Shown here: positions 23,760 to 26,832 of the stretch, one piece after another
How the letters are laid out: each line of letters starts with the position of its first letter
Position numbering within the stretch: position 1 is the first letter of the stretch
DNA from: Burkholderiaceae bacterium
Lineage (GTDB): Bacteria > Pseudomonadota > Gammaproteobacteria > Burkholderiales > Burkholderiaceae_B
Direction: 5' to 3'
Length of the DNA stretch: 62,355 bases
Assembly: GCA_030728985.1 (NCBI GenBank)
Contig: JANQYI010000033.1
Location: 1-62,355 of the forward strand
Made by a program: the position numbers and the translations under genes
Notes under the pieces: generated by a model
Told to the model about the DNA's origin: nothing
Seen by the model: the letters and a program-made list of their open reading frames with translations, nothing else
The model's database searches: none

Positions 23760-24464
23760 ATGAATGATCCGCGTCCCACACTATCACGCAGCCCCTACCA
23801 GTCGGGCCCAGTCGAGGTCGTGCGCAACCGGGTTTTGCGCAACACCTATTGGCTGCTGGCGCTTTCACTGATTCCAACCGTCCTCGGCGCCGCCGTGGGC
23901 ATGTATAGCGGTCTCAACCAAATCATGGCGGCCAGCCCCGGCATGACCGTCATCGTCTTTCTCGCAGGTGCCTTCGGTCTGATGTTTGCTGTCGAGAAAA
24001 ACAAAGAAAACTCCCTAGGCGTCGGTCTGTTGCTGCTGTTTACCTTCTTCATGGGTCTCATGCTTTCGCGCATGCTGGGCTTTGTGCTGGGCATGAGTAA
24101 CGGCACTTCCTTGGTCATGTTCGCGTTTGGCGGCACCGCGGTTGTGTTCGGCACGATGGCCACGCTGGCCTCTTCGATCAAGCGCGATCTCTCAGGCCTG
24201 AGCAAGTTCATGTTCATCGGCGTGGTCGTGTTGTTGCTTGCAGCCGTGGCTAACATCTTCTTGCAGATTCCTGCGCTGATGTTGACGGTCTCCGTACTGG
24301 CCATTGTGGTGTTTTCAGCCTTCATGTTGATCGATCTGCAGCGTGTCGTGAACGGCGGCGAGACGAACTACGTGTCAGCGACCTTGGCGATTTACCTCGA
24401 CGTCTACAACGTCTTTGCCAACCTGCTCGCTATCCTCGGTATTTTTGGTGGCAGTCGCGACTAA
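23760..24464 (+). CDS. Bax inhibitor-1 / YccA family membrane protein
   Basis: A 234-residue inner-membrane protein with seven predicted helices (the first near residues 30-50, the last near 205-230). The family Asp-rich C-terminus is present ('YLDVYNVFANLLAILGIFGG'). YccA is a substrate and modulator of FtsH, and BI-1 homologues can act as pH-dependent ion leak channels; which applies here is unknown. An AAGGAG site precedes the ATG by seven bases. A strong terminator follows. Confidence 0.92.
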   Translation: MNDPRPTLSRSPYQSGPVEVVRNRVLRNTYWLLALSLIPTVLGAAVGMYSGLNQIMAASPGMTVIVFLAGAFGLMFAVEKNKENSLGVGLLLLFTFFMGLMLSRMLGFVLGMSNGTSLVMFAFGGTAVVFGTMATLASSIKRDLSGLSKFMFIGVVVLLLAAVANIFLQIPALMLTVSVLAIVVFSAFMLIDLQRVVNGGETNYVSATLAIYLDVYNVFANLLAILGIFGGSRD

Positions 24465-24488
24465 ATCAACAGACGCGTTCTGATGCTG

Positions 24489-24510
24489 AGGCCCACTTCG
24501 GTGGGCCTTT
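24489..24510 (+). terminator. Rho-independent terminator after BI-1 gene
   Basis: AGGCCCAC-TTCG-GTGGGCCT is an 8-bp GC-rich stem with a stable UUCG tetraloop, followed by TTTCTTTTT. It lies 25 bp past the stop codon. Confidence 0.92.
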
Positions 24511-24521
24511 TCTTTTTCTGG

Positions 24522-24730
24522 TTTGTTTTAAAGGGAGGCCTACGGTGCATCAAACCGATGCTGGGTCCGAGCGGAGCCCGGACTTCCCTGCGCCCAAGCT
24601 TGAGCACATCGCACAACGCCCAAACTCGCCCCAAGGGGCTCAGACAAGGGCGTTGTTCATGCGATGCGCTCTGCGTTGGGCTTGGCTGCGCTGACGGTTT
24701 GATGCACCGTAGGCCTCCCTTTAAAACAAA
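24522..24730 (+). repeat. Structured palindromic repeat, copy A
   Basis: A 209-bp element with no gene. Outer arms 24522-24557 and 24695-24730 are perfect 36-bp reverse complements. Inside, in order, are module 1 (24555-24595) with an internal hairpin GTCCGAGC/GCCCGGAC, a middle-stem left arm (24596-24613), module 2 (24614-24657) forming CAACGCCC/GGGCGTTG and GCCCC/GGGGC, the middle-stem right arm (24660-24677, 13 of 18 paired) and module 3 (24678-24697). The GCCC ending module 1 and GGGC opening module 3 would clamp the middle stem. Modules 1-3 recur in copy B on the other strand. Open frames through it are by-products of the palindrome. It fills most of the gap between the BI-1 and enoyl-CoA hydratase genes. 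Confidence 0.93.
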
Positions 24731-24784
24731 GCGAAGACCAATCTGAATGACAAACCTAAGGCGCATCGACACCCAAGCAATGCG

Positions 24785-25531
24785 TTACTTCTTTTTATTT
24801 AAAAACGAGGCAAACGCCGCTTGCGCTTCGTCTGATTTCAAACGCTCGTTGAAGTGTGCCCATTCATAATCAAATGCAGCATGAACCTTTGGCCTTAGGC
24901 TGTGCTTGAGCATACGCTTGGATGTTTGAAGCGCTTGGGGCGGAAGCGCGGCCAGCTCATTTGCCAAGGCTTGTGCATCATGAAGCGCCTGACCGGGTTT
25001 AGAAAGAGCAGTGATGAAGTCCGCTTCCAAGGCCTCTTGCGCGCTGAAGGGACGACCACGCAGCAACCAGTCTGTGGCACGACGTGACCCGACGATTTGC
25101 GCCATCAGCATGCTCGAAGCCCCCTCTGGGCATAGACCAAGCGGCACAAAAGGAATTTTAAACGTGACATTTTCAGCCGCATAGACAAAATCGCAATGCT
25201 GCAGCAGCGTGACACCAATACCGATCGCACTCCCTTCAACCGCCACCACAATCGGCAAATCACAATCCGCCAAACTACGAAGAAACTTAATCCCAGCACT
25301 ATCCCCCTCCGGCCTTGGCACTTGAAAATCTTTGAGGTCATTCCCCGCGGTGAAATAGTTTTCAGCACCCGTTAAAACTATCGCCCGGATCTCTTTATCT
25401 TGACCTGCAGCCAAAATCTGTTCAGCGAGCCCAAGATAAGTCGCAACGTCCAAAGCATTCCGCCGCTCTGGACGATTAATCGTCAGGGTCAACACCCCAT
25501 TATTTTTTACAACAAGCACAGTTTGGTTCAT
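24785..25531 (-). CDS. Enoyl-CoA hydratase/isomerase family protein
   Basis: A 248-residue crotonase-fold protein. The oxyanion-hole segments are 'NYFTAGNDLKDF' and 'VAVEGSAIGIGVTLLQHCDFVYA'. The region where classical enoyl-CoA hydratases carry a catalytic Glu reads 'PLGLCPEGASSMLM', so Glu follows Pro here and the isomerase-type or hydratase-type reaction is not decided. It should act on a cytosolic acyl-CoA. It is a single-gene unit on the minus strand, bracketed by the two inverted repeat copies. The catabolic operons nearby supply possible partners. Confidence 0.88.
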   Translation of the reverse strand: MNQTVLVVKNNGVLTLTINRPERRNALDVATYLGLAEQILAAGQDKEIRAIVLTGAENYFTAGNDLKDFQVPRPEGDSAGIKFLRSLADCDLPIVVAVEGSAIGIGVTLLQHCDFVYAAENVTFKIPFVPLGLCPEGASSMLMAQIVGSRRATDWLLRGRPFSAQEALEADFITALSKPGQALHDAQALANELAALPPQALQTSKRMLKHSLRPKVHAAFDYEWAHFNERLKSDEAQAAFASFLNKKK

Positions 25532-25655
25532 CGAAAGCGTTCCGAATCTAAAGAGATATTAATGATAAGAGGATATGAGCGACAAGTGGTTATGAACGAT
25601 AAAAGCACATTAATGCTGTTGTAGCGCAAAACGAAAAAACTTGAGAGCCACATCA

Positions 25656-25855
25656 CTCTTGAGGGTCAAAGATGCGTGTCAGGCCGTCAGCGCAGCCAAG
25701 CCCCGTCATAAGATCATCGCATCAACAACGCCCCTGTCTGAGCCCCAACGGGGCGAGTTTGGGCGTTGTGCGATGATCTTATGACAGGGCGCAGGGCAGT
25801 CCAGGCAAAGCCTGGACCCAGCATCGGTCTGACACGCATCTTTGACCCTCAAGAG
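25656..25855 (-). repeat. Structured palindromic repeat, copy B
   Basis: A 200-bp element in opposite orientation to copy A. Outer arms 25656-25682 and 25829-25855 are perfect 27-bp reverse complements. Middle-stem arms 25705-25721 and 25769-25785 are perfect over 17 bp. On the minus strand module 1 (25827-25787), module 2 (25768-25724) and module 3 (25703-25684; 20 of 20 identical to copy A) follow in the same order. The module-1 hairpin here is GTCCAGGC/GCCTGGAC, paired like copy A but with different bases. Neither the outer nor the middle stem resembles that of copy A. It lies in the 416-bp gap between the enoyl-CoA hydratase and hydrolase genes; I see no gene in the rest of that gap. Confidence 0.93.
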
Positions 25856-25947
25856 CCCTTGCCTCAAAAGCCCCCCAAAAACCGACAAGATCTCTTGACG
25901 CTGCCAACAACCTCATGCCAAGCTAGCCCCCTACTTAGGAGAACTTC

Positions 25948-26832
25948 ATGCTGACCGTGAAAACCGATGATGGCGTTGATCTAGTCTACGAAACCTATGG
26001 TTCTGGAACCCCGATTGTGTTTGTCCACGAATTTGCCGGACACAAAGAAAGCTGGGAACCTCAAGTGCGTCACTTCGCACGGCAGCATCAAGTGATTACT
26101 TACAATGCACGCGGCTATCCCCCCTCCTCCGTACCCCCTGATGTCTCCTCCTACTCGCAGAATCGCGCCGTGGCAGACATTATTGCCGTGATGGATCATC
26201 TAAAAATACAAAAAGCCCATATTGTCGGCTTGTCGATGGGTGGCTTTGCCACATTGCATTTTGGTCTACAGCATCCCGACCGCGCTTTATCCTTGTGCGT
26301 CGCAGGTTGCGGCTACGGTGCCGAACTCGACCAGCAAGAGCAGTTCAAAAAAGAAGCCGAAGCCATCGCCGACATGTTGCTCAAGCAGGGCATGAAAGCC
26401 TTTGTTGACAAGTATGCGCATGGCCCCACCCGGATTCCTTTTGAACGCGCAGATCCACATGGTTTTGCGGAGTTTAAACAGCAGTTTTACAGCCACTCCG
26501 CGCTCGGCTCCGCCAATACACAACTCGGTGTGCAACGCGAACGTCCTTCGCTCTACAACCTCAAAGACAAGCTTGCCAAACTCACGGTGCCCACGTTGAT
26601 TTTGAACGGCGACGAAGACTGGCCTTGCCTCGCGCCAGGGCTGATGCTCAAGCAAACGATTCCTTCAGCCGCCTTGGCGATTTTGCCCAATTGCGGCCAT
26701 ACGATGAATATCGAAATGCCCAATGAGTTTAACCATGTCCTGGGCAACTTTATCAGCCATGCAGAAAGCGGTCGTTGGCCCATGCGCGATCCACGCGCCA
26801 TGGTCGCTTCGATCACAGGCATGAAGGATTAA
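25948..26832 (+). CDS. Alpha/beta hydrolase
   Basis: A 294-residue alpha/beta-hydrolase. It has the oxyanion region 'FVHEFAGHKESWEPQ', nucleophile Ser in 'GLSMGGFA', Asp in 'NGDEDWP' and His in 'NCGHTMNIEMP'. The overall form resembles 3-oxoadipate enol-lactonase and related C-C or ester hydrolases, but the substrate is unknown. An AGGAG site precedes the ATG. It heads a four-gene plus-strand set; its TAA shares one base with the ATG of the next gene. It may hydrolyse a lactone or ester taken up through the Bug-type binding protein. Confidence 0.88.
   Translation: MLTVKTDDGVDLVYETYGSGTPIVFVHEFAGHKESWEPQVRHFARQHQVITYNARGYPPSSVPPDVSSYSQNRAVADIIAVMDHLKIQKAHIVGLSMGGFATLHFGLQHPDRALSLCVAGCGYGAELDQQEQFKKEAEAIADMLLKQGMKAFVDKYAHGPTRIPFERADPHGFAEFKQQFYSHSALGSANTQLGVQRERPSLYNLKDKLAKLTVPTLILNGDEDWPCLAPGLMLKQTIPSAALAILPNCGHTMNIEMPNEFNHVLGNFISHAESGRWPMRDPRAMVASITGMKD

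Follow-up and report, generated by a model that had tools for sequence, protein, structure and literature searches.

How can two stretches of DNA each pair almost perfectly with themselves when the pairing arms of one share almost no sequence with those of the other? Two elements in a 62,355-nucleotide stretch of a Zwartia genome (the window, meaning that whole stretch) raise this question: copy A, at 24522-24730 on the plus strand, and copy B, at 25656-25855 on the minus strand. The first-pass annotation had read them as one structured element whose compensatory changes are the hallmark of selection on a fold. We favor, with a probability of about 0.6, an order-wide family of palindromic monads whose dyads proliferate as units and whose arms are matched at the DNA level by arm-to-arm correction.

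Copies A and B and their locus

In copy A, the outer stem P1 consists of a 5′ arm at 24522..24557 and a 3′ arm at 24695..24730, which form a 100% inverted match over 36 bp. The P2 hairpin, the core of module 1, was placed at 24565..24583 by alignment and fold, and the apical module AACTCG-stem-CTCAGACA, which is the signature of the family, at 24623..24646 by pattern and locus scans; module 3 spans 24678..24697. Copy B, placed by the same means on the minus strand, has its P1 arms at 25825..25855 (5′) and 25656..25686 (3′), a 97% inverted match, with the P2 hairpin at 25799..25817, the apical module AACTCG-stem-CTCAGACA at 25735..25759, and module 3 at 25684..25703. Module 3 is identical between the two copies (20/20), and modules 1 and 2 are nearly identical. 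The outer stems have almost no sequence in common, yet each pairs near-perfectly with itself; in P1 of copy B, 28 of the 29 counted positions are Watson-Crick pairs and the remaining one is an A.C. The 5′ arm of copy A reaches −50.8 kcal/mol with its own 3′ arm versus −12.3 kcal/mol with that of copy B, and the arms of copy B reach −50.6 kcal/mol with each other versus −13.9 kcal/mol with those of copy A. Folding z-scores are −12.8 for copy A (24515-24737, plus) and −14.9 for copy B (25650-25862, minus), with none of 200 shuffles as good in either case.

These results bear out much of the first-pass annotation. The positions of both copies and their three common modules agree with the alignment, the proposed outer stem of copy A (36/36) matches in full, and that of copy B (27/27) agrees outside the single mismatch. 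The nested fold P1[P2,P3[P4[P5]]] was reproduced. The annotation had recognized no named family; likewise, no Rfam 15 family attained its gathering cut-off in scans of the whole window and of seven loci, and relaxed matches fell far below it.

Copy A begins directly after a terminator-like hairpin with a 9-bp stem and a T-rich tail (24488..24519, plus), which stands behind a Bax1-I family gene (23760..24464, plus; PF01027). Copy B lies upstream of an alpha/beta hydrolase gene (25948..26832, plus; PF00561). Between the two copies is an enoyl-CoA hydratase gene (24785..25531, minus; Pfam PF00378), which by synteny is inverted relative to the genus. That the A/B pair encloses an inverted gene, and that its head-to-head arrangement is the commonest of the family, had been overlooked in the first-pass annotation.

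Zwartia is a member of the Alcaligenaceae, and close copies are carried by 5 of its 32 genomes, seven copies in total, all of which occupy one and the same locus; a sixth genome (G211) has a 34-bp match only. The Bax1-I and hydratase genes are co-directional in 21 of 21 non-carrier loci of the genus in which both were seen, and the hydrolase is co-directional with the hydratase in all 11 non-carrier loci where it was also seen. Three carriers (G060, G184, and G159) have a single element between hydratase and hydrolase. In G108 and the window genome, two elements face in opposite directions and the hydratase gene that they enclose is inverted, which places the inversion in two of five carriers versus none of the 21 non-carrier loci. 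Between G060 and G184, a 204-bp core with 90% identity lies in opposite orientation within collinear flanks. The locus may have first received an element between hydratase and hydrolase; a second copy would then have been gained behind the Bax1-I terminator and the hydratase between the copies inverted, an order of events that we infer. Core identity between Zwartia copies ranges from 0.76 to 0.92. Of 161 core columns, 98 do not vary among the seven copies, while fourfold sites of the three locus genes differ by 39-59% among the five carriers; each copy thus seems constrained, which would not be expected of plain junk and counts against our favored account.

An order-wide family of monads and dyads

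A covariance model built from the seven Zwartia copies was used to find candidate relatives. By DNA similarity search, A and B are the sole copies in the window genome, which is 87% complete; four more distant copies, on contigs C4 and C11, score with the model. Matches were found in 17 of 399 Burkholderiales genomes at E<=0.01 and in 20 of the 32 genus genomes at E<=1. The reverse strands of A, B, and the G184 copy receive 27.7-30.0 bits from this model, near the lowest matches of the 399-genome search. Because low-scoring matches can be any long hairpin, the breadth of the family rests on the exact apical-module signature, which occurs in 38 of the 399 sampled Burkholderiales genomes and 23 of 159 genera; a reversed-pattern control gave zero in all 399. 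The figure of 38 is a lower bound, since the exact signature misses subtypes (G546 has model matches and no pattern place), and it includes two pattern places in G034 (one in L243) where the portion read shows no P2 module and which might belong to a different repeat. A 299-genome sample of Pseudomonadota yielded two signature matches, both in Burkholderiales, and none in its 279 genomes from outside the order. The multiple copies that the first reading implied are thus found, seven in Zwartia and relatives across the Burkholderiales by both model and signature.

A looser pattern occurs 167 times in the retrieved loci. Most of the matches listed share a common plan (P1 arm, GC hairpin P2, CCCT, P3/P4, AACTCG-stem-CTCARACA, P3′, CTCGGC, P1′), and a monad measures 150-200 nt. 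A and B are two diverged Zwartia monads of this order-wide interspersed repeat family, each of which would form a nested palindrome, P1[P2,P3[P4[apical module]]]. An origin from plasmids or phages was considered and set aside: BLAST found no match to copy B in either group, nor to one other monad in plasmids or to a further one in phages, and a longer pattern gave no match in viral contigs, where a shorter one (at least 120 stretches) was discarded as too short.

Within the genus, eight genomes beyond the five carriers (G200, G203, G206, G207, G215, G217, G218, and G220; L215-L222 and L229) contain monads whose apical stem is shortened (AACTCGCTTCGCTCAAACA or a variant differing by one base), and seven of the eight have one covariance-model match each. 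The five carriers also have more distant monads on both sides of a urea-type ABC transporter operon, approximately 6 kb apart (L232 1967-8218; L233 1061-7246; L234 1941-8199; L235 1715-7980; L236 1892-8132). This operon, which we take to be urt, has the domains PF13433, PF02653, and PF00005 in L232, and a head-to-head monad pair stands at one of its ends in three of the five carriers.

In other Burkholderiales, two monads usually stand head-to-head as a dyad, often between convergent genes. Monad order was counted over 119 deduplicated occurrences in 38 genomes (a set that overlaps, and is not identical to, the 38 carriers), in fetched stretches partly chosen for near pairs. Among 42 neighbors within 3 kb in these stretches, 36 were '+ −', 2 '− +', 3 '− −', and 1 '+ +', and within 500 bp 30 of 34 were '+ −' (binomial p 1e-14 against 0.25). 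The order-wide signature matches listed gave 16 of 21 '+ then −' within 3 kb and 11 of 14 within 500 bp, and the window pair A/B has this order too. Outside Zwartia, the dyad of two head-to-head monads is roughly 400-600 bp long. Five G518 dyads align with one another, as do seven from the related genomes G262 and G474, in each case across several hundred bases that take in the shared outer hairpins.

One orthologous gap allows dyad and empty site to be compared. It is flanked by genes for a tyrosine recombinase (PF00589, presumably xer-like) and a lipoyl ligase (PF21948, presumably lipB-like), and in it G262 has 625 bp with a dyad versus 83 bp in G628, a single comparison without an outgroup in which insertion and loss are indistinguishable (gap loci L288, L315, L316, L313, and L184). 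In G616 and G622, the dyad at this gap matches better in opposite orientation; G474 has an opposite-orientation match on the recombinase side only, where its contig ends. The junction as read has GC-rich ends and no clear target-site duplication. The PF00589 recombinase gene next to the G262 dyad is taken as a host gene, since it also adjoins the empty gap in G628. Several alignable copies per genome, absence at one orthologous gap, and opposite orientation there in relatives show the dyad to act as a single, non-coding unit that proliferates.

Other repeats were seen between monads. In G518 dyads (L238, L275, and L276), the space between the two monads repeatedly contains a second short repeat around ACGGTCGACCGTAAAA, and in L303 (871-1933) short ORFs repeat the peptide HGLCYNARLDPMH several times, which suggests another, unrelated repeat there.

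Pairing in RNA or in DNA

A functional structured RNA (a 3′-UTR element, a small RNA, or a cis-regulator) with its fold under selection has several observations on its side. The strong compensatory change noted at first sight is real: in the seven Zwartia copies, 11 consensus pairs changed on both sides versus 4.8 ± 1.5 in shuffles (0 of 500 reach this number), and a partner-slid control gave 1-3 double-changed pairs. Across the order, 684 double-changed cells were counted versus 201 in shuffles, over 48 rows that are model matches from 41 retrieved loci in a model-fitted alignment, three of them reverse-strand. The internal loop AACTCG/CTCARACA is kept across genera, the modules are far more conserved than fourfold sites, and outer monads face the 3′ end of the neighboring gene in 65 of 88 cases (65 versus 23, p 9e-6, from a simple ORF caller with related loci uncorrected).

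The types of pairs argue otherwise. Variable pairs of the element comprise 72 G.U, 65 A.C, and 138 other mismatches, whereas RNase P RNA from 27 order genomes (27 of 30 loci, three being outside the length filters) gave 80 G.U, 5 A.C, and 25 others, a G.U to A.C ratio of 16:1; an unfitted alignment of the same element rows gave no consensus pairs, so that the treatment of element and control differed. Across the seven Zwartia copies, 215 of 219 P1 pairs are Watson-Crick and one is G.U, even though arms taken from different copies mostly make poor partners (with partial exceptions in G060, G184, and G159). Order-wide, pairing is copy-specific: upstream and downstream halves of the same copy reach −69.0 kcal/mol, and halves drawn from dissimilar copies −50.1 kcal/mol (152 copies; p 3e-26). 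With composition controlled, the two strands have mean z-scores of −3.97 and −4.03 (76 of 152 copies), and orthologous loci differ in element orientation, as with the core inverted between two sister genomes. Because G.U is not above A.C, both strands fold alike, and the element is flipped at orthologous sites, a DNA-level process accounts best for the pairing, and the strong covariation here probably does not mean a structured RNA. From the earlier reading, the nested fold, the covariation, the multiple copies, and the lack of an Rfam family are retained, while selection on the fold in the RNA sense is not, and we regard a structured RNA as unlikely.

Against the DNA-level view, isolated mismatches in near-perfect stems are A.C in 41 distinct contexts versus G.U in 15. 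This A.C excess in strong stems is a strand asymmetry that could fit a transcript of the opposite strand and hints at a role for it. As the candidate RNA strand, the opposite strand was set aside: it folds more stably in 117 of the 152 copies, a difference that dinucleotide shuffles explained in the 76 copies so treated.

Near-perfect pairing, replacement of sequence, no wobble preference, and flips are together the prediction of arm-to-arm copying in a palindrome, and would be hard to obtain from selection on RNA. Arm-to-arm correction is suggested by these patterns of variation: stems would stay paired during turnover mainly because their arms copy or correct one another as DNA, with a hairpin or cruciform, template switching, or arm-arm recombination as candidate routes. 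Conservation of the short modules may reflect their recognition as folded DNA by some factor. The same exchange between arms would account for the inverted cores, the inverted whole dyads, and, at the window locus, the inverted gene.

Alternatives and known systems

A role at gene ends as a bidirectional terminator of transcription or as an insulator, with conservation for that role and spread by duplication, would suit the strand symmetry of the element, the T-rich stretches that follow the outer hairpins of dyads outside Zwartia, and the flanking genes, which are convergent at 24 of 55 loci and divergent at 7 of 55 (both neighbors called by a simple ORF caller, some places counted twice). 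We consider it quite improbable, given that copy A sits behind an existing terminator, that a terminator scan gave no such site at either copy itself, that copy B lies upstream of the hydrolase gene, and that a terminator requires neither 200 nt nor conserved loops.

Genes enclosed by monads raise two further ideas. Head-to-head monads might mark either end of a mobile DNA cassette of a novel type and be read as folded single-stranded or cruciform DNA by a hypothetical recombinase able to insert, invert, and enclose genes; the window hydratase would then be a chromosomal gene captured and flipped. To this we give little likelihood. Simple gene-cassette ends, with head-to-head monads enclosing accessory genes that move with them, are less likely still. 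Six of eight neighbors 500-3000 bp apart are '+ then −', and five such pairs besides the window pair enclose small orphan genes, one of them DUF6988; the cases are few, however, and the gene enclosed in the window is an old gene of the genus, not cargo. A Pfam search of the eight proteins enclosed by cargo-bearing pairs returned no transposase or recombinase.

Among these pairs, L305 (693-1896) has inverted arms of approximately 246 bp and 86% identity around one DUF6988 gene, whose protein matches the candidate defense model PDC-S52, the one match to PADLOC among six enclosed proteins. In G490, three + / − monad pairs (L281 750-3201, L283 777-2985, and L263 1501-2790) enclose small orphan genes, and of six of their proteins searched against Pfam, only one has a match, weak and below cut-off (DUF4238).

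A REP/REPIN family mobilized by a RAYT (Y1) transposase, whose intergenic hairpins likewise come as inverted pairs in many copies, is the least credible reading, as an association of Y1 with carriers was tested across the 399 genomes and not found: 15 of 38 carriers have Y1_Tnp (E<=1e-8) versus 183 of 361 others (Fisher p 0.23), some of which do carry elements because the exact pattern misses subtypes, and no Y1_Tnp occurs in G518, which has the most pattern places (17), or in G272, G355, G490, and G474.

Palindromic DNA units with arm-to-arm correction remain our preferred account. The analysis brings to light an order-wide, apparently unnamed interspersed palindromic repeat family, which points to a mobilizing activity. 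It also presents a case of strong covariation in which stems are rewritten yet remain Watson-Crick, with no wobble preference and with flips. Covariation pipelines could mistake such an element for RNA; the count of G.U versus A.C separates it from RNase P RNA. The family would provide a natural setting for studying, in bacteria, how palindrome arms are corrected and how inversions arise.

Comparison with known systems places the family within a familiar class. It shares nested helices and covariation with the structured RNAs of Rfam, and its wobble pattern is unlike that of RNase P RNA. REP, BIME, and REPIN elements of enterobacteria and pseudomonads are likewise intergenic, multi-copy, non-coding, and strand-symmetric inverted pairs of hairpins. 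The REPIN trait of an inverted hairpin pair dispersed as a unit is found here as well, in that close neighbors are mostly '+ then −' and dyads align whole. REP units are hairpins of about 20-40 nt with a GTAG-type tetranucleotide at the base, whereas the Burkholderiales family consists of nested palindromes of 150-200 nt with an internal-loop module and, unlike REP/REPIN with RAYT, has no Y1 association over 399 genomes. ERIC and NEMIS are intergenic repeats of the MITE-like kind, and presence or absence at orthologous sites, a MITE-like trait, was found in one comparison (83 bp in G628, 625 bp in G262). One report (PMC2759123) also describes the intergenic, MITE-like repeat units RU-1 (127 bp), RU-2 (168 bp), and RU-3. 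As far as these descriptions extend, RU-1, RU-2, RU-3, ERIC, and NEMIS resemble the Burkholderiales family as non-autonomous intergenic repeats of 100-200 bp; they belong to other hosts, and the family is set apart, by description, through its head-to-head dyads and the replacement of stems around kept modules. Searches of the open-access literature turned up no paper with an apparent description of it. The family is thus apparently new and unnamed, an interspersed palindromic repeat of a known broad kind with unusual anatomy and behavior.
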